Positions 5,057-20,612 are shown, counted from the stretch's first letter. The stretch is DNA of 64,000 nucleotides from Phycisphaeraceae bacterium (GCA_021297895.1 JAJTHN010000021.1:1-64000), one strand, 5' to 3'. The notes: a model not told the origin generated them from the letters alone. Translations and numbers: made by a program.

Positions 5057-6130
5057 TCAGTACGTCTGAACCGCAGAGGTCGCGGGCGCGATCGACGGGC
5101 TGGTTTCGGTCAGCAACGCGTGCATCGCCTCGATACAGCGATCAACCGCCTGCTCGTTCACGTCAAGGTGCGTGACGAAGCGAATCCGTCTGGGCTGATT
5201 GGGCAGCGCGAGCACGCCCGCAGCGCGGAGCCGCTCGCACACCGCCGCCGCGGGCGGATGCGGCGGATCGAGATCCACGAAGACCATGTTCGTGACCACC
5301 GGCATAGCGATTCGCACGCCCTTGATCTGCCGCAGTCCTGCTTCGAGCCGCCGCGCGTTGGCGTGGTCCTCGACGAGCCGCTCGCGATGATGCTCCAGCG
5401 CGTGCAACGCCGCCGCGGCGAGGATTCCGCTCTGTCGCATCGTGCCGCCGAAGAGTTTACGGAAGCGGTGCACCCGATCGATGACTTCTTTACTGCCGAC
5501 GACCGCCGAACCAACAGGGGCCCCGAGCCCCTTGCTGAAGCAGCACGAAATCGTGTCGAAGTGCCGGGCGTACTCCGCGGGCGAGATCCCCGTCGCGGCG
5601 CACGCGTTCCAGAGGCGTGCGCCGTCGAGGTGCGTTCGCAGCCCCGCCTCGCGTGCGGCATCAACGACGCTGCGCAGCCGCTGCATATCCCAGATCGAGC
5701 CGCCGCCGCGGTTGTGCGTGTTCTCGACAACCAGCAGTTTGCTCACGGCAAAGTGGTGCTGCCGCGGCCGGATCGCCCCGCGAACATCGGCCGCATCGAA
5801 CTGGCCGAGTTCGCCACGCAATGGCCGGATCATCACCCCCGAAAGCGCCGCGGGCGAACCGGTCTCGTAGTGAATGATGTGCGAGTCCTCGTGGCAGATG
5901 ACCTCGTCCCCCGGCTCGGTGTGGGCACGGATCGCCGTCTGATTCGCCATGCTGCCGCTGGGAACAAAGACCGCCGCGTCCTTGCCCATGATCTTCGCGA
6001 CCCGCTCCTGCAGCGCGATGATGGTCGGATCGTCGCCCAGAACATCATCGCCGACCTGTGCGTCGGCGATAGCCCTACGCATCGCTGGCGTCGGACGCGT
6101 GACCGTGTCGGAACGGAAGTCGAACGGCAT
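5057..6130 (-). CDS. ltaE: Low-specificity L-threonine aldolase
   Basis: A 357-residue PLP enzyme of the beta-eliminating lyase family, cleaving L-threonine or allo-threonine to glycine and acetaldehyde. The N-terminus FRSDTVTRPTPAMRRA and the GDDVLGDDP motif are diagnostic. THLDGARLWNA carries the Asp/Arg pair that contacts the cofactor. The Schiff-base lysine is K200 in CCFSKGLGAPVGS. The ATG at 6130 is preferred over 6142 because the conserved family start is MPFDFRSDT. It is divergent from the GH20 gene with only 73 bases between starts, so the two probably share a promoter region. Confidence 0.93.
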   Translation of the reverse strand: MPFDFRSDTVTRPTPAMRRAIADAQVGDDVLGDDPTIIALQERVAKIMGKDAAVFVPSGSMANQTAIRAHTEPGDEVICHEDSHIIHYETGSPAALSGVMIRPLRGELGQFDAADVRGAIRPRQHHFAVSKLLVVENTHNRGGGSIWDMQRLRSVVDAAREAGLRTHLDGARLWNACAATGISPAEYARHFDTISCCFSKGLGAPVGSAVVGSKEVIDRVHRFRKLFGGTMRQSGILAAAALHALEHHRERLVEDHANARRLEAGLRQIKGVRIAMPVVTNMVFVDLDPPHPPAAAVCERLRAAGVLALPNQPRRIRFVTHLDVNEQAVDRCIEAMHALLTETSPSIAPATSAVQTY

Positions 6131-6203: not shown

Positions 6204-8069
6204 ATGCCCCCGACCGACGATCGCGATCTGCTCATCATCCCGACACCCAAGCGCGTGGAGTTCCTCGGCGGCGAAGTCGCCATGCCCGCGGACGGGCAGG
6301 TCACGGTCCGCGATGTTCGGCTGCCGGGAAGGCCGGATGAACGCAGCATCGCTGGCCAGGCGTACTCGCTGCGAGTCGTTGACCCCGCGAGCGACGGCAA
6401 CGGGAGACTCTTCGAGATCGCCACCGCCAGCCCCGCGGGGCGTCGGAACGCCGTCGCGACGATGCAGCAGTTGATGCGACGGTTCCCGAAGCGGATGCCA
6501 AGACTGGTCATTCACGATGAGCCTGCATTCGCGGTCCGGGGCGTGATGATGGACATCTCACGCGATCGCGTGCCGACCATGTCCGAGTTCGCCCGATGGG
6601 CCGAGCTCTTCGCGGTGCTCAAGATCAACCACCTGCAGTTGTACACCGAGCACACCTTTGCCTACGCCGGTCACGAGGACGTATGGCGCGGCTGGGGAGC
6701 GGTCACGCCGGATGAGGCACGCGAGATGTCCCGCATCTGCGCGGAACACGGCATCGAGCTCGCCGCGAATCAGAACTGCTTCGGCCACCTGGCCCATTGG
6801 CTCCGCATGCCGCGATACGCGGGGCTCGCCGAGACGCACGGCGACTGGATGTTCGATGTCTGGCCACGAAGCGGTCCGTTCTCGCTCTGCCCGATCGACC
6901 CGGCAAGCGATGCGCTCGTCAGCGACCTGCTCGGGCAACTTCTGCCGTGCTTCGACAGCCCGCTGGTGAACATCGGCGCCGATGAGACCTACGACATCGG
7001 CTGGGGCCGGAGCAAAGACGAGGTCGCTCGTCGGGGCAAGGGCGCCGTCTATGCCGACTTTGTCGCGCGTGTGTGCGCCATGGTCCGCGCCCGCGGCAAG
7101 CGCCCGCAGTTCTGGGCGGATATCGCCCTCTCGCACCCCGAAGCCCTCAGCCGCCTCCCCTCGGACCTGATCGCCCTGGCATGGGGCTACGAGCCCGACA
7201 GCAAGTTCGATGCGTGGTGCCGGGCCATCGCCGGCGCACCGGCGATCGACGGCGGCAGGATGGAAACGTGGGTCTGCCCCGGCACCAGCGCGTGGCGATC
7301 CATCACCGGTCGAACGAGCGAACGCCGCGGCAACCTTCACGCCGCCGCCGTCGCGGGTGTGCAGCACAATGCCCCGGGATTTCTCATCTGCAACTGGGGC
7401 GACATCGGTCACACCCAGCAGTGGCCGATCGAGGCCCACGCGATCGCCCACGGCGCGCACGCCGCGTGGACCGGCGAGGCGACGGCGTTCGATCATCGCG
7501 CGTGCTCCCTGCATGTCTTCGATGATGGCAGCCTGAGCGTCGGCGAGTACCTGGAGACCTTGGGCGATATCGACGAGCCGCTCCGGCGCATCAGCGGGCG
7601 GCTGAGCAAACCCGCAGAGCAGGGTGAGTTCCGGCTGCTGAACGCCACGGCGCTCTTTGCCGACATGCACAATCCTGAGACGCTCCATGACCGTGCCGAA
7701 GTCGGCAGCGTTGGGGCGTGGGAGGAGACGGCCTCCCGTCTCGCGGCGCACAAACCGCCGACGGATTCACGCATCCCGTCGCAGATCATGCTCGAACTGA
7801 TCCACTCATTCACGGAAGCCCGACTCGCCGCCGCGCGGGGTCTCACGCGCCGGCGTGCGCTGCGCGATGGGCGATGGCCCGGCGAGCGCGAACGCTTGGC
7901 GATCAGCGAGGAACTGGCGGACCACATGGAGCACCATCGCGTGCTGTGGCTCGGACGCAGCCGCGATGGGCTGGGGCTGGATGACTCGCTGGCTCGCTTC
8001 GAGCGTGTTCGGCGAATCACCTCGGCGCCGGAACCAGAATCAACCGCCAAGGAAGTGGGGCGGTCATGA
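6204..8069 (+). CDS. Glycoside hydrolase family 20-like beta-N-acetylhexosaminidase, cytoplasmic
   Basis: A 621-residue protein with the GH20 catalytic signature NIGADETYDIG, in which D260 and E261 are the substrate-assist Asp and the general acid. Upstream, RGVMMDISRDRVPTM and INHLQLYTEHTFAY match the start of the GH20 barrel (R-G-x-x-D, then x-x-N-x-L-x-x-Y). An N-terminal GH20b-like domain (LLIIPTPKRVEF) precedes it. There is no signal peptide, so it should act in the cytoplasm on GlcNAc-containing sugars. The frame is open further upstream over ltaE, but the ATG at 6204 is the first that leaves the divergent gene. Its stop overlaps the anmK start (ATGA), which points to translational coupling and to a role in muropeptide sugar recycling. 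Confidence 0.85.
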   Translation: MPPTDDRDLLIIPTPKRVEFLGGEVAMPADGQVTVRDVRLPGRPDERSIAGQAYSLRVVDPASDGNGRLFEIATASPAGRRNAVATMQQLMRRFPKRMPRLVIHDEPAFAVRGVMMDISRDRVPTMSEFARWAELFAVLKINHLQLYTEHTFAYAGHEDVWRGWGAVTPDEAREMSRICAEHGIELAANQNCFGHLAHWLRMPRYAGLAETHGDWMFDVWPRSGPFSLCPIDPASDALVSDLLGQLLPCFDSPLVNIGADETYDIGWGRSKDEVARRGKGAVYADFVARVCAMVRARGKRPQFWADIALSHPEALSRLPSDLIALAWGYEPDSKFDAWCRAIAGAPAIDGGRMETWVCPGTSAWRSITGRTSERRGNLHAAAVAGVQHNAPGFLICNWGDIGHTQQWPIEAHAIAHGAHAAWTGEATAFDHRACSLHVFDDGSLSVGEYLETLGDIDEPLRRISGRLSKPAEQGEFRLLNATALFADMHNPETLHDRAEVGSVGAWEETASRLAAHKPPTDSRIPSQIMLELIHSFTEARLAAARGLTRRRALRDGRWPGERERLAISEELADHMEHHRVLWLGRSRDGLGLDDSLARFERVRRITSAPEPESTAKEVGRS

Positions 8070-9193
8070 GCGGGAGTCATGACAGATTGGTCGCCGGGTG
8101 CATGACCGGAACCAGCATCGACGGGATCGATGCGGCGCTGGTGCGAGTCTCGGGGACCGGGCTGGCCATGCGAGCGTCATTCGTCCGCGGCGTGAGCAGA
8201 TCGCTCGGCGAACTGGCTGCGCCGCTGCGTGGATTGGCCGAGCAGGAGCCCATGACAGCGGGCGACATCGCGCGATTGTCACGCGACTTTGCGCTGCTTC
8301 ATGTTGAAGTGGTGCGCGAACTGGTCGGGGCCGATCCGCTGTCGATGATCAGCGCTCACGGGCAGACTGTCTTCCACGCCCCGCCGGCGAGTTGGCAGTT
8401 GCTCGATCCAACGCCGATCGCACTGGGGCTCCGCGTCCCGGTGGTTACCCATTTGCGCGGCGCGGATCTGGCCGCGGGCGGGCAGGGCGCGCCGATCACG
8501 CCACTGAGCGACTGGATCATGCTCCGCTCGCCCGGCGAGAGTCGGGCCGTGGTGAACCTCGGGGGCTTCTGCAACGTCACCCTGCTGCCGAGCGACGCGA
8601 CTGTCGCGAACGGCGACGCCGCGACGGGCCCGCTCGAAAGTGCGCGGCGTGTTTCCGGCTGCGATGTCTGTGCGTGCAATCACGTGCTCGATACCGTCGC
8701 GCGCAGGTGCTTGGCCGTTTCGTTCGATGAGAGCGGTCAGCGAGCACTCGCCGGCACTGTGCACGATGATGCCCTCGACGACCTGCGTTCTGTGCTCATG
8801 GTGCAGGCCAGCAGCAAACGCAGCCTTGGAACCGGCGATGAGGTCACGGGCTGGATCGGCCGCTATCGCACGACGTGCGACGGCGCCGACCTTGCGGCGA
8901 CCGCATGCGAGGCGATCGCCGAGATGATCGCGGCCAAGGTAGCTGGCGTTGATCGCGTGCTGCTTGCCGGCGGCGGAGTCATGAATCGCGCGTTGATCCG
9001 CGCGATCGCCTCCTGCTGCTCCGCGCCCGTGCAGACCACCACGGAGCACGGTCTTGATGGGCGCTACCGTGAAGCCGCCGCGATGGCGGTGCTCGGGGCG
9101 CTCTGTCAGGATGGTGTGCCGATCACGCTCAGCGCAGTCACACGTTGCCCGGGCCTTCCGCCGCGTGCCGGCGTGTGGGCGTACCCGATCTGA
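8066..9193 (+). CDS. anmK: Anhydro-N-acetylmuramic acid kinase
   Basis: A 375-residue AnmK, which opens the 1,6-anhydro bond of anhydroMurNAc and phosphorylates it to MurNAc-6-phosphate using ATP. The N-terminal phosphate-binding loop GCMTGTSIDGIDAALV is characteristic. ISAHGQTVFHAP and VVNLGGFCNVTLLP are the next two conserved blocks, and LLAGGGVMNRAL is the adenosine-binding segment. Length is normal (about 370). The ATG overlaps the stop of the GH20 gene by four bases, and murQ follows 63 bases later, giving substrate maker, kinase and etherase in order. Confidence 0.95.
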   Translation: MSGSHDRLVAGCMTGTSIDGIDAALVRVSGTGLAMRASFVRGVSRSLGELAAPLRGLAEQEPMTAGDIARLSRDFALLHVEVVRELVGADPLSMISAHGQTVFHAPPASWQLLDPTPIALGLRVPVVTHLRGADLAAGGQGAPITPLSDWIMLRSPGESRAVVNLGGFCNVTLLPSDATVANGDAATGPLESARRVSGCDVCACNHVLDTVARRCLAVSFDESGQRALAGTVHDDALDDLRSVLMVQASSKRSLGTGDEVTGWIGRYRTTCDGADLAATACEAIAEMIAAKVAGVDRVLLAGGGVMNRALIRAIASCCSAPVQTTTEHGLDGRYREAAAMAVLGALCQDGVPITLSAVTRCPGLPPRAGVWAYPI

Positions 9194-9256
9194 AGCGACC
9201 CGACTCCGACAGGATCAGCACGCAGCACGCCGCCGACTCCCTTCCTTGAGCAGACC

Positions 9257-10270
9257 ATGCCGACACGATCGACCCGCCGAAAGCCCTCCAAGAACGCAAA
9301 GGCCTCCGCGCCCGCGACACCCGGTCACGGCGCGACATCGGCTCATCCGCCCGACCGATCGCACATCGCCACCGAGCAGCGGAATCAGCGAACGCGCTCG
9401 CTGCATCGACTGAGCATCGCCCAGTGCGTGCGCGTGATCAATCAGGAGGACGCACAGGTCATCGCGGCCCTTCGTGCCGCCGCGCCGGCGATCACCCGGT
9501 TCATCGAGGCGGTTGAGCCCGGCTTCTGTGCAAAGCCGAGACCCGGCAAGCCCGCGGGCAGGCTCATCTACGTCGGTGCGGGCACCAGCGGCCGGCTCGG
9601 CGTACTCGACGCGAGCGAGGCTCCGCCGACATTCATGGTTCCGCCCGATCGCATCATCGGCATCATCGCCGGCGGCGACGGCGCGCTCCGCAAGAGCAGC
9701 GAAGGAATGGAGGACGACCCCGATGGCGCCCGCGCCGAGCTCCAGCGCCTGGCCCTTACGCCGCGCGACGCCGTTCTCGGCATCGCCGCCGGCGGCACCA
9801 CGCCGTATCCCAACGGCGCGCTGCTGATCGCCAAGGAACTCACCCGCGGCAAGTGCGTCACAGGCCTGCTGACCTGCTCAAAGGTGCCGCAGCCCGATCA
9901 CGCCGACCACCTCATCGTGCTGGCGACCGGACCGGAAGTGCTCACCGGCTCAACCCGCATGAAGGCCGGCACCGCGACCAAGCTGGCGCTGAACACCATC
10001 AGCACCACGCTCATGATCCGCTCGGGCCGCGTGTATCAGAACCTCATGGTCGACATGCGAGCGAGCAACAGCAAGCTCCGCGATCGCGCCGCGAGAATCG
10101 TCAGCACGCTGACAGGGCTTTCCCGTCCCGAGTCCTTCGAACTGCTCGCGAGCGCGGGTGACCACGTCAAGGTCGCCATCGTGATGCACCGCCTGGGCGT
10201 CAATGCCGGCAGGGCCCGCGCGCTCATCGATCGGGCCGACGGCAAACTGGGTGACGTTCTGCGCGACTGA
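9257..10270 (+). CDS. murQ: N-acetylmuramic acid 6-phosphate etherase
   Basis: A 337-residue MurQ with an SIS fold, cleaving the D-lactyl ether of MurNAc-6-P to give GlcNAc-6-P and D-lactate. YVGAGTSGRLGVLDASE (ending at E121) and SSEGMEDD (149-154) contain the two glutamates expected in the active site. AAGGTTPY and GPEVLTGSTRMKAGTATK are further family blocks. The conserved core begins at TEQRN (residue 39), so there is a basic, Lys/Arg/Pro-rich N-terminal extension of about 38 residues whose role is unknown. It completes the recycling set with the GH20 gene and anmK. Confidence 0.95.
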   Translation: MPTRSTRRKPSKNAKASAPATPGHGATSAHPPDRSHIATEQRNQRTRSLHRLSIAQCVRVINQEDAQVIAALRAAAPAITRFIEAVEPGFCAKPRPGKPAGRLIYVGAGTSGRLGVLDASEAPPTFMVPPDRIIGIIAGGDGALRKSSEGMEDDPDGARAELQRLALTPRDAVLGIAAGGTTPYPNGALLIAKELTRGKCVTGLLTCSKVPQPDHADHLIVLATGPEVLTGSTRMKAGTATKLALNTISTTLMIRSGRVYQNLMVDMRASNSKLRDRAARIVSTLTGLSRPESFELLASAGDHVKVAIVMHRLGVNAGRARALIDRADGKLGDVLRD

Positions 10271-11813: not shown

Positions 11814-12019
11814 TTGGTTCTCGGACCCGAACGCTCACCCAATTGTGAACTTAGGGCCTCCGGCCATGTTTGTGCCGACTTACACTATTAACAGAGCGGC
11901 TGTGCGCTCGCGGGCACGATGCCTGCGGTGCGCGCGGTCTTCTCCGCCGAGGCGGGTGGTCCCGGCTCGGTTGGCGGTTGTTTGTGGCTTGATCAGCAGA
12001 CCCGTTCATGGGAGCACGG

Positions 12020-14005
12020 ATGCAGCAGAACCACGCTGATGTTCACGGGAGTCTCAGGGCCGCGGCGCTGCACGCGCTCGGGCCGGCACTCGGGGCCGTC
12101 TCGCGCGCGGGCGCTCGCCGCGCGGTCGTGCTTGTTGCGCTGGCTGGCGGCGCCGCGGCGTGGGCCGCGCCGGAGATGGAACTCTCGACGGACATGCCAG
12201 TGGAACTGCCCGAGACACCCGAACTTCCGGCCAGTCCGCAGGAGCGCGGCTGGTTCTCCGTGACGCACTTCCTGGTCAGTTACCCGCGGCCTGACAACAC
12301 CCTTCCGGACCTGAACGAACTGGCCGACGTCAAGGTCACCCTTGGCGTCAGCGATGAGGGCTTCGTCGCGCCCACGCAGGGGCTGCCCACCAAGACGATG
12401 ACGCTGCAGGAACTCAACGACATGGGCGGCACGTTCGCCTGGTCGGCGATCGAGACGGTTTCGGCCGCGGTGGTCGGGCACCTGAACTCACGCGGGGTCG
12501 TTGCGCTCTTCGTCGCGCCCAGCGCGGCGGACATCGACGAGAACTACCGCGACCTGCGCAAGGAGCGCGGTCAGGGCGAACTGAACCTCTTCGTCTGGAC
12601 CGGCCGCGTTGAGGAGGTCCGCACCATTCGCGTTGGCGATGGAATCGATCCGATCGACGCGGTCAACGACGAGACCTCTCTCGCCCGCCGCGTGCGCGAC
12701 GGCTCGCCGATGCAGGTCGGCGACGTCGTGCGTCGCGATCAGCTCGACCGATTCCTGTACAAGCTCAATCGCCACCCCGGTCGGCGTGTCGATGCCTCGA
12801 TCGCCGCGGCCGATGTCGGCGAGCCCGGACGCGTTGCGCTGGACTATCGCATCGCCGAGAGCAAGCCCTGGACGATCTACGCCCAGACCAGCAACACCGG
12901 CACGCAGAGCACCAGCGAGTGGCGCCAGCGTTTCGGCTTCATCCACAACCAGCTCACCGGCAACGACGACATCCTCACGCTCGACTATTCCACCGCCAGC
13001 TTCGCTCAGAGCCACGGGCTCAGCGGCAGCTACGAGTTTCCGCTCTCGTACGACACGCTCCGCCTCCGTTTCTTCGGCGGCTGGAGCCGATACACCGCCA
13101 GCGATGTCGGATTCCCGGGGCTGAACTTCCGCGGCGAGGACTGGAGCTTCGGCGGCGAGGCCATCTGGAACTTCTACCAGCACCGCGACCTCTTCATCGA
13201 TGCCGTCGGCGGGGTGCGGTACGAGAACACGCGCGTCACGAATGAACTGCTCTCGAGCAAGGGTCGCGCGAGCCTGCTGATCCCCTCCGCCAGCCTTCGC
13301 GTGTCGCGAGATACCGATCAGAACAGCGCCTTCGGTGCGGTGACGCTCGAAGGGAACATGCTCAACAACAAGGTTGACGACCTCGAGCCGCTCGGCCGAA
13401 CCAGCCCCGATCGCTACTGGGTGAGCGTCAAGTGGCAGGGCGAATACGCGTTCTACCTCGAGCCGCTCCTGACCAACGGGCCCAAGACCCTCGCCCATGA
13501 GTTCAGCGTTGGCGTTCGTGGACAGTCGGCCCTCGGTCGCCGCGTCATTCCCACGCAGCAGCAGGTCATCGGCGGCTTCTTCAGCGTCCGCGGCTACGAC
13601 GAATCGATCGCTTCGGGCGACAACGTCGTCATCGGCACCGGCGAGTACCGCTTCCATCTGCCGCGGGCCTTTGGCACCAGCAACGACGCCGGCCCGCGCG
13701 AGCAGACGCTCTTTGGCCAGCCCTTCCGCACGCGCCCGACACAGGACTTCGGTCTGACCGACTGGGATCTGATCTTCCGCGCCTTTGCCGATGCCGGTCG
13801 CACGATCAACAACAAGCGGCTGAACTTCGAGAAGAACCAGACGCTCGTCGGGATGGGCGTCGGCGTGGAGTTCCAGCTCCGGCGAAACATTTCCGTTCGT
13901 GCCGACTGGGGGTTTGTGGTTGAGGAGGTCACGGACGTTACGGGCCGAAAACTCGCCGGCTCGGGCGATAACCGGCTCCACTTCATCACCACACTCGCAT
14001 TCTGA
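12020..14005 (+). CDS. TpsB outer-membrane transporter of a two-partner secretion system (ShlB/FhaC family)
   Basis: A 661-residue outer-membrane protein. The ATG at 12020 has GGAG 5 bases upstream; ATG 12008 is the in-frame alternative. After a signal peptide (VLVALAGGAAAWA) come an acidic linker and two POTRA-like domains (about 45-170 and about 190-270, the second containing TIRVGDGID and LYKLNRHPGRRVDASI). A 16-strand-type barrel follows, with alternating aromatic strands. The conserved Omp85/TpsB barrel motif appears as FFSVRGYDES, with the RGY that inserts into the pore, and the chain ends on Phe. The TpsA substrate is the next gene, 175 bases downstream. The 194-base gap upstream (11814-12007) is locally AT-rich near 11875-11893, the likeliest promoter site, but I cannot fix the elements. 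Confidence 0.88.
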   Translation: MQQNHADVHGSLRAAALHALGPALGAVSRAGARRAVVLVALAGGAAAWAAPEMELSTDMPVELPETPELPASPQERGWFSVTHFLVSYPRPDNTLPDLNELADVKVTLGVSDEGFVAPTQGLPTKTMTLQELNDMGGTFAWSAIETVSAAVVGHLNSRGVVALFVAPSAADIDENYRDLRKERGQGELNLFVWTGRVEEVRTIRVGDGIDPIDAVNDETSLARRVRDGSPMQVGDVVRRDQLDRFLYKLNRHPGRRVDASIAAADVGEPGRVALDYRIAESKPWTIYAQTSNTGTQSTSEWRQRFGFIHNQLTGNDDILTLDYSTASFAQSHGLSGSYEFPLSYDTLRLRFFGGWSRYTASDVGFPGLNFRGEDWSFGGEAIWNFYQHRDLFIDAVGGVRYENTRVTNELLSSKGRASLLIPSASLRVSRDTDQNSAFGAVTLEGNMLNNKVDDLEPLGRTSPDRYWVSVKWQGEYAFYLEPLLTNGPKTLAHEFSVGVRGQSALGRRVIPTQQQVIGGFFSVRGYDESIASGDNVVIGTGEYRFHLPRAFGTSNDAGPREQTLFGQPFRTRPTQDFGLTDWDLIFRAFADAGRTINNKRLNFEKNQTLVGMGVGVEFQLRRNISVRADWGFVVEEVTDVTGRKLAGSGDNRLHFITTLAF

Positions 14006-14180
14006 TCGGGTCTGTTTCCAGTTCTCTTGGCACAAGGGCTGGACGTATGGCAAAGTAGATGTGCAACCGGTCAGGGACGACCGCGAAGAGGCTTCCGGGG
14101 CCGCACACCTCGGATGTCCACAGCGGCGTGACCAGACCGGGTCGCGGTTCGCACATCGGAAGAAGGAAGAGGACGCACAC

Positions 14181-17100
14181 ATGCACAAGAACGCCCCCGC
14201 CCGCGCCGTTGTTTCGCGTCGGTCCCCCGCCGGCCCCGCTATGGGCCGGCTCGTCGCCATTTCCATGGCGCTCACCGCGGGCACCTGCCTTCCCGTCTGG
14301 GCGCAGAGCCCGACAGGCGGCCAGGTGGTCAACGGCTCGGCGACGATCGCTCAGAGCGGCGCGATGACGACCATCACCGCTGGCAACGGCGCGATCATCA
14401 ACTGGCAGTCGTTCTCGATCGGCCAGGGCCAGACCGTCCAGTTCATCCAGCCCGGCGCGACCAGCACGGTGCTGAACCGCGTTGTCACGCCCACGCCCTC
14501 GATCATCGACGGCAACCTCTTTGCCAACGGCCGAGTCTTCCTGGTCAACCCCGCGGGCGTCATGTTCGGCCAGAATGCCGTCGTCAATGTCGGCGGCCTC
14601 GTCGCCGGCGCGGCGTCGATGAGCGACAGCGACTTCCTCAGCGGCGACATCCGCTTCACCAACGCCTCGGGCACCGTCGTCAACAACGGCCAGATCAAGG
14701 GCGGCGAGGCCGTCCTCTTCGGGCGGAATGTCGAGAACAACGGCCTCATCGTCGCCGAGCAGGGCACCGTGATGCTCATGGCCGGTGATGAGATGTTCGT
14801 CGGCAAGGTCGACGGACAGGTTTTCGCCAAGGTCTCCTCCAAGGCCGACTCCGGCACCGACAAGCCCGGCGTGTCGAACACCGGCGTGATCGATGCCCGC
14901 GGCGGCAGCGTCCGTCTGGCCGCGACCGATGTCTTCGGTCAGGCCGTCTGGAATTCCGGCACCGTCCGTGCAAACGACGTAACCATCGAGGCCCAGCGCA
15001 CGGGCCACGGCCGCGAGGACTCCACCGTCACCGTCTCCGGCACCATCGACGCGACCAACGCGAGCGGCAAGGGCGGCAACGTCTCGATCACCGGCACCCG
15101 CGTGCTCATCGATGATGCCGACATCAACGCTTCCGGCAGCCAGGGCGGCGGCACGATCCGCATCGGCGGTGACTATCGCGGCCAGGGCTCCATGGCCCGG
15201 GCCGACCGCGTCGTGGTCTCCGATGACTCGTCCCTGACCGCCGACGCCACGGCGAACGGTCACGGCGGCACCATCATCGTCTGGTCGGAACTCTTCACGA
15301 ACTTCCAGGGTTCCGCGAGCGCCCGCGGCGGCGCGGAGGGCGGCGACGGCGGTCTGATCGAGACCTCCAGCCGTCAGAACGTCTACCTCAATCCCGTCGG
15401 CATCAACGCCTCCGCCGCCAAGGGCAAGAACGGCCTCTGGCTCATCGACCCCCGCAACATCACCATCGCCGCCAGTGCGAACGCCAACGGTGCGTTTGCC
15501 GGCACCGATCCGCTGACCTTCACGCCCACCGCCAACGACGCCGTGGTGAACGTCGCTTCCATCAACGACGCTCTGGCTCTCGGCACCAGCGTCACCATCA
15601 CCACCAGCGACCCGACCGGTGGTCAGCAGGGCAACATCCTTCTTGAAAGCGGCGCGACCATCACGCGCTCAACCGCAGGCAGCGCGACCATCACGCTCCT
15701 GGCCGCCAACGACATCACCCTCAACGGCAGCATCACCTCCACCAACGGTTCGACGCTCAACGTCGTCCTCAAGGCCGGCGACCCGGCTCAGCAGTCCGAG
15801 CCGAACAACGCGGGCAACGCGGCCCGCACCGGCACGCTGAACATCAGCACCGGCTTCATCGATGTCGATGCCGGGGACATTTACCTCCACGCTGGCAGCG
15901 GCGGCATCAACCTCGCCAACGCCGTCAATTCCGATGGTGTCGGTGCGACCATCCGGATGGTCACCGATGGCAACATCACGCAGACCGCCGGCGGCGTCTT
16001 CGCCACCAACCTGGGTATCCAGGCTTCGGGCAATGTCGACCTCATGGGCGTGAACAACCGGGTCGACGTGCTCGCGGCCGACGTTGGCGGCACGCTCCGC
16101 TTCCGCAACACCGTCGGGTTCACCGTCGGCTCGGTTCCCGCCTCGATCCTCGCCCCCGAGTATGTTCTGGTCGAGGGCATCACCAGCAGCAACGATGACG
16201 CGATGCTGATCGCCAGCAGCGGCTCGCTCACCCTGGCCAACAACATCAACCTCGGCACCGGCGTGCTCCGCCTCTCTGCTCAGGACGGCGTCTCGCAGAA
16301 CTCCACCAGCATCATCACCGCCAGCGGCCTTGCCGCCATCAATACCGCTACCAACGCGATCTCCCTGACCAGCGCCAACAACATCACCGGCGCGATCGCC
16401 GCGAAGAACTCCGCTGCGGGTGGCGAGGTCCGTCTCCGCAACAGCGTTGCGACCACGATCGGCAGCGTCGCCGCGGCCACAGGCTACAACGCCGATGCGG
16501 CACTCTCGGGCATCACGACGAACGTCGGCGACATCAACCTCAACACCGGCACGCTCTCGCTTGAGCAGGCGCTGAGCGCCGCGGACGCGGTCGTTCGCCT
16601 TCGCACCACCGGCGGCATCTCGCAGACCTCGTCGGGCATCATCACCGCAGCCAGCCTCGGCGTGATCAACACGCTCTCGGGCAATGTCGTGCTCGATGAC
16701 GCCAACAGCGTCGGGATCGTCGCCGGTGAGAACAACGTCGCCGACGGCACTTTCGTGCTCCGGTCGACGTCGAGCCTGACCGTCGGCTCGGTCTCCACGC
16801 TCACGGACTTCTTCCAGCGACCGGCCGAGTCGACCGCGCTGCTGGTCTCGGGCATCATGACGACGAATCCCGCCGCGGGAACGGGTGCCTCGAACAACAA
16901 CGTCACGCTCAGCAGCGCCGGCTCGCTGGCGCTCGAGCAGGCCATCACCGCCGGTCGCGCGACCGTGCGTCTGCAGTCGGCAACCGGCATGAGCCAGACC
17001 GCGGCGGGCATCATCTCCGCCCGCGCCCTTGGCCTGGTCAACTCCGACTCCGGCTCGATCGTGCTCGACAAGGCCAACGCCATCGTTGATGGCCTGGCCG

Positions 17101-20100
17101 CACTGAACAGGGCCAGCGGTGCGGAGGTTGTGTTCCTCAACACCGCCAGCAGCATCGCGCCGGGCACATCCGCGCTGAACATCACCGGCATTACCGGTGT
17201 CGCCAACCTCTTCTCCGCCGGCGACCTCAGCGCCGGGACGGATGTCGTCGGCGTCCGCACCACGGGCAACGGCAACGCGCTGCTCCGCACCAACGGCACG
17301 ATGAACATCGATGCGGTTGTCAACGTCGGCACGGGCGTCCTCCGCCTGCAGACCGGCTCGGGCGTCAACCAGGAGAGCGGCGCCGACGCGGCCATCACCG
17401 CGGGCTTCCTCGCCGCGTTCAACAGCAACCCCAACGGCGGCATCACCACCGGCCGCCTGGCGTTCTTCAACGACAACAACCAGGTCAGCGCCATCGCCGG
17501 TCGGAACAACAACGGCAACCATGCTCCGAACCAGGCCGGCGTCGGTGCGGACGTCTCGATCTTCACCATCCCCTCGCTGACCATCGGCGAGTTGACCACC
17601 ACCGACAGCCGGTTCGCCGACGGCGCGGTCATCAGCGGCATCAAGACCTTCGGGCCCAACGGCGGCTCGCAGATCATCAGCCGCACCGGCACCCTCACGC
17701 TCGAACGCGGCATCGATAACGGTGCCGGTGGCACGTACATCCAGGGCGGCACGGGCGTCATCCAGCTCTCCGGTGCCGGCATCATCTCGGGCACGCTTAT
17801 CGCCGCCAATCGCCACCAGACCGAGAGCCTCACGACCGGTGACGTTCTCCTCTTCGAAGAGAACAACATCGCCCGCTCGAACGGCCTGGGCCGCGTGGGC
17901 ATCACGAACCTGGCCAAGGGCGGGCTCCTTCGCTTCCGAAACATCTCGGGCTTCGAGACCAACGCCCAGAACAACCCCGGCCTGGTCCAGTCCAACGGCT
18001 TCGTGACGACCAACAACGACGCCGGGCCGTTCACCAACACGATGACCATCGTCGCCGGCGGCCAGATCCAGGTCCTCGAGCAGATCAACGCCGGCTCCGC
18101 AAACGTCTTCATGCAGGCCGCTGGCGGCATCAACGGTGATGCCCCGATCTCCGCGGGCACGCTCGCCCTGGTGAACAACATCTCCGGCGGGATCGACCTC
18201 CGCACCGCCGCCAACCGCGTGAGCACGCTGGCCATCCGCAACAACGTCGAGAGCGCCTTCATCGCTTTCCGCAACGAGGGTTCTCTCACGGTCGGTTCTA
18301 TCTCCGCCCCCGACAGTGACTTCAACAATGGTCTCGATGTCGTCGGTGTCTCGGGCAAGGGCAACACCGCCATCGGTCTGCACAGCCGCACGGGGTCGCT
18401 CACGCTCAATCAGGCCGTCAACGCCGGCTTCGGCGCGGTCTTCCTGCACGCCAATCGGGGCATCTCGCAGTCGTCCACCGGCCTGATCACCGCCGGGGCG
18501 CTCTCGGCGTACAACGGCACGTTCAACTCGACTGATCCCACGCCGGCCGGGAACATCGTGCTGGATCAGGCCAACGTTCTGGCGCTTGCCGGCACGACCG
18601 ACACCCCGATCCTCGCTCTGCGCAACGACGTCGCCGGCGCGAGCGTGATCTTCAAGTCCGTCGGCACGCAGGGCTTCGTCACCGACGCGTCCGATGCCAT
18701 CGACAACCTCATCAACGCCATCACCGGCGTGTCCACCGGCTCCGGCGGTCGCGTCAGTCTCATCTCGGCCGGCGGCTCGATGTTCCTGGGCAACGTTGTC
18801 TCGGCGCTCGGCGGCGATGTCCGTCTGACCGCGCTGACCAACGTCAACCAGGGTGGCAACGGCCGCATCTTCGCCGACCGCCTCGGCGTCGTCGTCACGG
18901 GTACGGGCGAGGGCTTCGTCACCCTCGGTGCGGAGAACCGCGTTGGATTCGTCGCCATCAGCAGCCGTGGCGACGGCAATGTCCAGTTCCGCTCGATCGA
19001 CAACCTGACCGTCGGCAAGCTCGCCGCGGAGACCGACTTCAACGCCGGCAACGAGCTCGTCGGCATCTCCACCCGCACCGGCCGCGACATCAACGTCTCG
19101 GGCAAGATCCTGACCATTAACGATGCGCCGCTCCGGACGAACCTGGGCAAGCTCACACTCACCGGTACCGAGAGGATTCTGCTCAACCAGAACCTGCTGT
19201 CCAACGGGGGCGACATCGTCGTCAATGGGCCGGTCGTTCTGGGTGGCAACATTCTTGTGTCCAGCCGCTTCAACGGCATCGGGACCTATGCCGGCGCGGG
19301 CTCGGTTCTGTTCAACGGCGACATTCTGGCCACCGGTTCGGATGCCTCCCGCACCTTGACGATCCTTACCCCCGTCGGTCCCGAAGTCGCCGCCGGCACG
19401 CTCTTCCCGCCGCGCGTCGTGTTCAACGGCACCCGCATCGGTACCCAGACGGAGCGTCTCGCCAGCGTGCTGATCAACGCCGACAACGCCCGCACCAACC
19501 TGCCCGGCGCGGCGACCATCGTCTTCGGGGCGTCGCGCAACATCGACACCCTCATCTACTCGCCCATCGCCGGTCACTCGATGCAGGTCTTTACCAGCGA
19601 CCAGTTCACCGCCGGCGCCCTGGAGCGCACGACGGCCCTTGGATCGCTCTCCTTCAACTCCGTCGCCAGCCGCTCGAACCAGCTCACCCTCGGTGATCTG
19701 ACCGTGCTGGGCGACCTCAACGTCTTCTCCAACGACTTCCGCCTCCAGCCTGGCGTCCCGATGAACGTCGTCGTCGGCGGCAATCTCGATCTCGGCGGCA
19801 CCGTTCCCGTCGCCTTCGGCGCCGGTCTTCCCGGTACCTTCAATATCTCCGACGCCGGCGTCTTCGGCATCGGCGCGTTCCCCGCCCTGACCATTCCCAC
19901 CACGCCCACCGCCGCCGACGTGATCGCCGAGAACGGCAGGACCATCATCACCCTCGGACGGATCGGCCGACTGGCCGTCGACCTGACCCAGACCTTCGCC
20001 GCCGGGACGCCGCTCGGTGCCGATGGTCTGATCATCCCCGGCGGCGGCCCGAACCTCGACGCCTTCGCCGGTCTGCTCGAAGAACTGGCCCTGCAGATCC

Positions 20101-20612
20101 GCGAGAGCGAGTTCGGCTCCGGCTTCACCTCCGACGTGCCCGAGGCCCGCGAAATCACCGCGGACAACATCCGCGTCTCTCGCGACCGCCTCAGCAACGC
20201 CAGCATCGACCGTCTTCTGAGCGTCTACAACGCCCTCTACACGATCGACGGCGACTCCATCGACCCCTCCGTCGATACCCGTCAGGCCATCGCGACGGCG
20301 CTCGAGCAGGCCTGGACGGAGTACGAGTCCGAGACGGGCATCAAGGCCGATGTCGACCCCATTGGCTTCCGCCTGTGGCTCGAGGCCCGCGAGCGTGACG
20401 CCAGCCTCACGCCCAGCCAGCGGCTCGCCCTGATCAGCCTCAACCGTGCCCGCGAGGTCTTCCGGGCTCTGGATCAGGCCGGCCTGACCCGTGTCGAGGC
20501 CTCGCGACCCCGCGGCGCTGTTCTCACCACTCTCGCCGCCGGCTGGCTCGAGCCCGCCGCGATCAGCAAGCTCGAGGTCGCGATCGAGGGCTTCGACCCG
20601 GCTCTGCAGTAA
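14181..20612 (+). CDS. TpsA-type filamentous haemagglutinin-like exoprotein
   Basis: A 2143-residue secreted protein. The ATG at 14181 follows a strong AAGGAAGAGG box. The signal peptide ends near LPVWAQ. The TPS secretion domain follows at once: ATIAQSGAMTTITAGNGAIINW, then INPAGVMFGQNA-like NPAGVMFGQNAVVNVGG, the segments that dock on the TpsB POTRA domains. The body is a predicted right-handed beta-helix rich in Gly, Asn, Ser and Thr with no cysteine after the signal. Residues about 560-1650 are imperfect repeats carrying S-L-T-V-G-S motifs. The last 220 residues are helical and acidic, with no recognisable toxin or VENN-type motif, so this looks like an adhesin and not a contact-dependent inhibition toxin. 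The upstream TpsB is its expected exporter. Confidence 0.87.
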   Translation: MHKNAPARAVVSRRSPAGPAMGRLVAISMALTAGTCLPVWAQSPTGGQVVNGSATIAQSGAMTTITAGNGAIINWQSFSIGQGQTVQFIQPGATSTVLNRVVTPTPSIIDGNLFANGRVFLVNPAGVMFGQNAVVNVGGLVAGAASMSDSDFLSGDIRFTNASGTVVNNGQIKGGEAVLFGRNVENNGLIVAEQGTVMLMAGDEMFVGKVDGQVFAKVSSKADSGTDKPGVSNTGVIDARGGSVRLAATDVFGQAVWNSGTVRANDVTIEAQRTGHGREDSTVTVSGTIDATNASGKGGNVSITGTRVLIDDADINASGSQGGGTIRIGGDYRGQGSMARADRVVVSDDSSLTADATANGHGGTIIVWSELFTNFQGSASARGGAEGGDGGLIETSSRQNVYLNPVGINASAAKGKNGLWLIDPRNITIAASANANGAFAGTDPLTFTPTANDAVVNVASINDALALGTSVTITTSDPTGGQQGNILLESGATITRSTAGSATITLLAANDITLNGSITSTNGSTLNVVLKAGDPAQQSEPNNAGNAARTGTLNISTGFIDVDAGDIYLHAGSGGINLANAVNSDGVGATIRMVTDGNITQTAGGVFATNLGIQASGNVDLMGVNNRVDVLAADVGGTLRFRNTVGFTVGSVPASILAPEYVLVEGITSSNDDAMLIASSGSLTLANNINLGTGVLRLSAQDGVSQNSTSIITASGLAAINTATNAISLTSANNITGAIAAKNSAAGGEVRLRNSVATTIGSVAAATGYNADAALSGITTNVGDINLNTGTLSLEQALSAADAVVRLRTTGGISQTSSGIITAASLGVINTLSGNVVLDDANSVGIVAGENNVADGTFVLRSTSSLTVGSVSTLTDFFQRPAESTALLVSGIMTTNPAAGTGASNNNVTLSSAGSLALEQAITAGRATVRLQSATGMSQTAAGIISARALGLVNSDSGSIVLDKANAIVDGLAALNRASGAEVVFLNTASSIAPGTSALNITGITGVANLFSAGDLSAGTDVVGVRTTGNGNALLRTNGTMNIDAVVNVGTGVLRLQTGSGVNQESGADAAITAGFLAAFNSNPNGGITTGRLAFFNDNNQVSAIAGRNNNGNHAPNQAGVGADVSIFTIPSLTIGELTTTDSRFADGAVISGIKTFGPNGGSQIISRTGTLTLERGIDNGAGGTYIQGGTGVIQLSGAGIISGTLIAANRHQTESLTTGDVLLFEENNIARSNGLGRVGITNLAKGGLLRFRNISGFETNAQNNPGLVQSNGFVTTNNDAGPFTNTMTIVAGGQIQVLEQINAGSANVFMQAAGGINGDAPISAGTLALVNNISGGIDLRTAANRVSTLAIRNNVESAFIAFRNEGSLTVGSISAPDSDFNNGLDVVGVSGKGNTAIGLHSRTGSLTLNQAVNAGFGAVFLHANRGISQSSTGLITAGALSAYNGTFNSTDPTPAGNIVLDQANVLALAGTTDTPILALRNDVAGASVIFKSVGTQGFVTDASDAIDNLINAITGVSTGSGGRVSLISAGGSMFLGNVVSALGGDVRLTALTNVNQGGNGRIFADRLGVVVTGTGEGFVTLGAENRVGFVAISSRGDGNVQFRSIDNLTVGKLAAETDFNAGNELVGISTRTGRDINVSGKILTINDAPLRTNLGKLTLTGTERILLNQNLLSNGGDIVVNGPVVLGGNILVSSRFNGIGTYAGAGSVLFNGDILATGSDASRTLTILTPVGPEVAAGTLFPPRVVFNGTRIGTQTERLASVLINADNARTNLPGAATIVFGASRNIDTLIYSPIAGHSMQVFTSDQFTAGALERTTALGSLSFNSVASRSNQLTLGDLTVLGDLNVFSNDFRLQPGVPMNVVVGGNLDLGGTVPVAFGAGLPGTFNISDAGVFGIGAFPALTIPTTPTAADVIAENGRTIITLGRIGRLAVDLTQTFAAGTPLGADGLIIPGGGPNLDAFAGLLEELALQIRESEFGSGFTSDVPEAREITADNIRVSRDRLSNASIDRLLSVYNALYTIDGDSIDPSVDTRQAIATALEQAWTEYESETGIKADVDPIGFRLWLEARERDASLTPSQRLALISLNRAREVFRALDQAGLTRVEASRPRGAVLTTLAAGWLEPAAISKLEVAIEGFDPALQ
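15840..19130 (+). repeat. Diverged protein-level repeats inside the TpsA shaft
   Basis: Each unit reads roughly: L-x-L-E-Q-A-I/V-x-A-G, V-x-L-R-x-x-x-G-I-S-Q-x-S-x-G-I-I-T-A-x-x-L, N-x-x-x-G-x-I-x-L, A-x-N-x-V, then F-R-N-x-x-S-L-T-V-G-S. TVG-type motifs occur at about residues 648, 759, 867, 1134, 1370 and 1610. The spacings are near 108-111 or about twice that, with degenerate copies between. The DNA is not a simple tandem repeat; conservation is at protein level. Confidence 0.7.

Follow-up and report, generated by a model that had tools for sequence, protein, structure and literature searches.

A GH20 hexosaminidase encoded with anmK and murQ as a probable substitute for NagZ in planctomycete peptidoglycan recycling

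A 64,000-nucleotide stretch of Phycisphaeraceae DNA (the window) carries a gene for a GH20 hexosaminidase directly ahead of anmK and murQ. We consider it quite probable that the three genes constitute a cytoplasmic module for recycling peptidoglycan sugars, in which GH20 does the job of the GH3 enzyme NagZ, and that GH20 and GH3 have been exchanged within the cluster. The GH20 enzyme most likely removes GlcNAc from imported GlcNAc-anhydroMurNAc. That GH20 replaces NagZ had been proposed in a sequence-only reading of the window, and the proposal is now strongly supported by comparative genomics: a GH3 gene is found in the same cluster of sister genera, and the two enzymes come close to excluding each other across the class.

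Contig C20, on which the window is located, belongs to a 3.48 Mb genome that is 97% complete. All three genes are on the plus strand. The GH20 gene, encoding a putative exo-beta-N-acetylglucosaminidase and proposed functional replacement of NagZ, spans positions 6204-8069 (621 aa). It is followed by anmK, encoding an anhydro-N-acetylmuramic acid kinase of variant type A (8066-9193, 375 aa), and by murQ, encoding N-acetylmuramic acid 6-phosphate etherase (9257-10270, 337 aa). The GH20 stop codon TGA (8067-8069) overlaps the anmK start codon ATG at 8066 in the sequence ATGA. This overlap, with murQ as the next gene, was part of the sequence-only reading and is borne out by the coordinates and by the Pfam and NCBIfam identities of the products. 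MurQ scores 311.8 bits against TIGR00274, above the equivalog cut-off of 302, and 343.9 bits against NF003915. Its homology begins only near residue 34, and the true murQ start may therefore lie downstream of the annotated one.

The GH20 protein matches Pfam PF00728 at 45.7 bits (cut-off 22.3). This is its sole domain, and the GH3 catalytic domain PF00933 is absent from it. An Asp260-Glu261 pair (encoded at 6981-6986, plus strand) is invariant across 17 homologs and lines up with the catalytic residues of Vibrio harveyi Nag2, in which D437, the counterpart of D260, is the residue mutated in 6ezt. An AlphaFold2 model of the protein (pLDDT 87.7, pTM 0.91) aligns with GH20 structures across about 280-527 residues, with Z scores of 27-34. 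The closest folds are those of Streptococcus pneumoniae GH20C and S. gordonii GcnA, which superimpose over nearly the whole length (Z 34.0, rmsd 3.8, 527 residues, 15% identity). GH20 enzymes use the N-acetyl group of the substrate itself in catalysis, a substrate-assisted mechanism that suits a non-reducing GlcNAc.

The GH20 enzyme is likely, though not proven, to be cytoplasmic. Translated from the start at 6204, its N-terminus reads MPPTDDRDLLIIPTP and begins a few residues before a conserved LLxPTP motif, as in homologs; in an alignment with these homologs, no conserved or supported signal peptide is seen at this start. An in-frame ATG upstream at 6129 would prepend a hydrophobic stretch, MLLIMAEGYVVGLACALAGR. 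We judge a hidden signal peptide of this origin unlikely because the extension overlaps the 5' end of a divergent aldolase gene and is not common to homologs. The earlier claim that the enzyme lacks a signal peptide thus probably holds, and its start position matches that of its relatives.

AnmK is assigned by PF03702 (168.7 bits, cut-off 24) and by matches to solved AnmK structures. It falls below the NCBIfam AnmK equivalog cut-offs, with a best score of 198.4 bits versus 387. The catalytic Asp, residue 182 in Pseudomonas AnmK, is retained: its aligned counterpart is D200, which pairs with residue 182 in the solved 3qbw chain. The active-site loop is altered: DVCACN (8663-8680, plus strand) stands in the alignment in place of DTGPGN. 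Every type-A AnmK aligned has D[VIL]CxCN at this position, with both Cys residues retained throughout, and every type-B AnmK aligned has DTGPGN or DTGPGC. Type-A AnmK proteins have this loop with a GH20 partner, with a GH3 partner, and with no such partner; judged from these alignments, the loop is a marker of the AnmK clade and not of the type of glucosaminidase. Because the loop is altered, the substrate of type-A AnmK may perhaps be other than the classical anhydroMurNAc.

The gene order is conserved. Sixteen GH20 relatives were taken from genome contigs, the best segments being 45-56% identical to the window's enzyme; their source genomes are named as Phycisphaerales and other planctomycetes. 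GH20 stands immediately before anmK in 13 of the 16, with murQ next in 8 of those 13. A second, diverged version of the GH20-anmK-murQ cluster, often followed by an SSF sodium:solute symporter gene, occurs in families f12, f22, f23, and f25; its GH20 and AnmK proteins are approximately 30% and 26% identical, respectively, to those of the window, and several of these diverged copies have overlapping or touching reading frames. A chance neighbourhood of GH20 and anmK is ruled out by the order shared among the 13 relatives and by the diverged copies. The AnmK tree splits type A from type B with full support, and the GH20 enzymes of type-A clusters form one clade (22 rows, support 100). Many GH20 homologs of families f7, f8, and f10 are located away from anmK.

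The distribution of GH20 and GH3 suggests that the two were swapped within the same cluster during planctomycete evolution. The window's own family is represented by 15 sampled genomes, and GH20 is found only in the window's genome and in G234. Eight genomes of the same family (G003, G013, G032, G090, G096, G197, G209, and G217) instead have an anmK-murQ-SSF-GH3 cluster without GH20. Two of these eight GH3 proteins were scanned; the best model for both was NagZ NF003740, at 168-172 bits, under the cut-off of 207. The cluster GH3 of G032 (L063, C1:2889561-2890532) has one in-frame TAG across its NagZ match. In G031, which belongs to a different family and has a type-B AnmK, anmK-murQ is directly followed by a GH3 gene scoring above the NagZ cut-off. 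Both cluster types, A and B, therefore occur with GH20 and with GH3.

The same pattern extends across the class. Among 248 sampled genomes, 156 have AnmK. With GH20 counted at 300 bits or more, 74 of these 156 have GH20 only, 29 have a NagZ-like GH3 only, 1 has both, and 52 have neither (Fisher p of about 6e-9, in a test that ignores shared ancestry). A stricter GH20 limit of 400 bits gives 32 with GH20 only, 29 with NagZ only, 1 with both, and 94 with neither, and a Fisher p of about 0.006, again ignoring shared ancestry. At the level of the order, the 39 anmK-bearing genomes comprise 8 with GH20 only, 22 with NagZ only, none with both, and 9 with neither (p of about 4e-4, shared ancestry likewise ignored). 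On the AnmK tree, in which many forks are poorly resolved, the labels GH20, GH3, and none change 7 times versus a mean of 12.9 when shuffled; the labels are thus clustered yet have changed several times.

The gene content of the window's genome agrees with replacement. The sequence-only reading had called for a genome-wide look for a GH3 NagZ, and none was found in the 97% complete genome: PF00933 has no match anywhere, and NF003740 finds no NagZ at E 1e-25. The replacement claim survives this check. A genome-wide family search returned a single GH20. The AmpG permease model TIGR00901 also has no match in this genome, and a clear NagA was not found there, the partial matches being weak (best 28.5 bits versus a cut-off of 225.65). 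Of the two lytic transglycosylase families covered, the GH23 SLT domain PF01464 and MltG PF02618, neither was found in the genome; three Amidase_2 proteins are present. With some 3% of the genome possibly missing, each of these absences is likely but not certain.

A candidate transporter is linked to the cluster. In many relatives an SSF symporter gene lies just upstream of GH20, making it a recurrent fourth member. The window's genome encodes its own SSF on contig C84, separate from GH20-anmK-murQ; it is 52% identical to the L005 copy. Because it nests in a tree among cluster-linked symporters, the C84 protein is probably the relocated cluster partner. Four loci (L061, L062, L064, and L065) have SSF, anmK, and murQ clustered without an adjoining GH20 or GH3; these clusters possibly serve monosaccharide import or work with another glucosaminidase.

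These observations allow a pathway to be proposed. Periplasmic enzymes would free peptide-free GlcNAc-1,6-anhydroMurNAc, and the SSF-family sodium symporter, rather than AmpG, would import this disaccharide, as its linkage to the cluster suggests. GH20, which has the appropriate fold and catalytic residues, would then cut off the non-reducing GlcNAc by substrate-assisted catalysis. AnmK, a member of the kinase family with a variant loop, would open the anhydro ring and phosphorylate the sugar to give MurNAc-6-phosphate, which MurQ, as its family assignment predicts, would split into GlcNAc-6-phosphate and D-lactate. We lean slightly toward the fuller proposal that the class has an AmpG- and NagZ-independent module in which an SSF symporter imports GlcNAc-anhydroMurNAc and works with GH20, a D[VIL]CxCN AnmK, and MurQ, GH20 and GH3 having been exchanged at least 2 times. 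Several observations weigh against the recycling assignment. The AnmK loop is altered, no GH23 SLT or MltG was found that could supply anhydroMurNAc, and no clear NagA was found for the GlcNAc-6-phosphate that MurQ would yield. In addition, 9 of the 39 order genomes with anmK have neither glucosaminidase, and many GH20 homologs elsewhere in the class lie apart from anmK.

The module could also serve for scavenging, with fragments from other bacteria imported as a source of carbon and nitrogen and the GH20 reaction unchanged. The presence of an SSF symporter in place of AmpG fits this role, as does the failure to find GH23 SLT or MltG in the genome. A MurNAc uptake operon of Tannerella forsythia likewise combines murQ and a kinase gene with MurT, a transporter of the sodium-symporter superfamily (PMC5790795). 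However, planctomycetes build their own peptidoglycan (title of Jeske et al. 2015, cited in PMC5061867), and the enzyme chemistry is the same in both roles, so genome data cannot separate scavenging from recycling. We regard scavenging as the less probable role, although it is the one among the alternatives to be taken most seriously.

The other alternatives concern substrates. The DVCACN AnmK might act on another sugar, such as plain MurNAc released by hydrolases, in which case GH20 would cut a non-anhydro disaccharide. The altered loop in all type-A AnmK proteins, the best score of 198 of 387 bits against the NCBIfam AnmK equivalogs, and the failure to find SLT and MltG are consistent with this possibility, but the aligned catalytic Asp is retained, the AnmK adjoining GH20 in type-B clusters is of the classical DTGPGN kind, and the search for lytic transglycosylases covered the SLT and MltG families only. 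We consider another AnmK substrate improbable. It is still less probable that the substrates of GH20 are other oligosaccharides with beta-GlcNAc or GalNAc, such as chitobiose or glycan fragments, and that the enzyme is only co-regulated with amino-sugar genes. Its nearest structures, GH20C and GcnA, are streptococcal exo-beta-hexosaminidases, and pneumococcal GH20C is in a glycan-processing locus; nevertheless, anmK and murQ are muramic-acid genes, and the cluster contains either GH20 or NagZ, two enzymes that almost never co-occur.

The favoured assignment, GlcNAc removal during recycling, resembles the NagZ-AnmK-MurQ route of E. coli and other Gram-negative bacteria in its AnmK and MurQ steps and in the proposed cytoplasmic step that would strip GlcNAc from GlcNAc-anhydroMurNAc. 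It differs from the E. coli route in that the glucosaminidase belongs to GH20 instead of GH3, AmpG was not found, the linked transporter is an SSF, and the AnmK loop is a variant. The streptococcal enzymes GH20C and GcnA share the nearest solved fold with the window's GH20; unlike the latter, pneumococcal GH20C does not sit among muramic-acid genes. In Tannerella forsythia a single operon, murT-murK-murQ, encodes a transporter of the sodium-symporter superfamily together with a sugar kinase and MurQ (PMC5790795), but this bacterium is a MurNAc auxotroph, its kinase is MurK, and no AnmK or GH20 is named in the operon. Recycling without AmpG, by way of another transporter, is described for Agrobacterium YejBEF-YepA (PMC9790009); that system is an ABC transporter, in contrast to the SSF linked to the GH20 cluster.

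The recycling pathway itself is known; the enzyme swap within it appears to be new. In the literature searched, with subscription journals largely outside it, no paper was found that ties GH20 to anmK or to planctomycete peptidoglycan recycling. Planctomycete peptidoglycan has long been disputed, and its recycling is hardly described in that literature. If GH20 carries out the NagZ step, this would clearly exemplify non-orthologous replacement, the sister genera would serve as natural before-and-after pairs, and annotation that seeks only NagZ and AmpG would overlook recycling in planctomycetes. GH20 and GH3 hexosaminidases have different mechanisms, and inhibitors therefore offer a testable prediction. 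Inhibitors selective for NagZ are treated in PMC3920638.

A search for further conserved neighbours of the cluster, apart from SSF, yielded only lineage-specific genes, such as an aminotransferase gene 3' of murQ in four loci. The L012 contig bears the name of a cyanobacterium, Leptolyngbya sp. PLA1, but falls among planctomycetes in the GH20 tree and probably comes from a mislabelled planctomycete bin. Elsewhere in the window, positions 12008-20612 hold a two-partner secretion pair, in which a ShlB/FhaC-like secretion protein (PF03865) precedes a protein of 2237 aa that carries a TPS secretion domain (PF05860).
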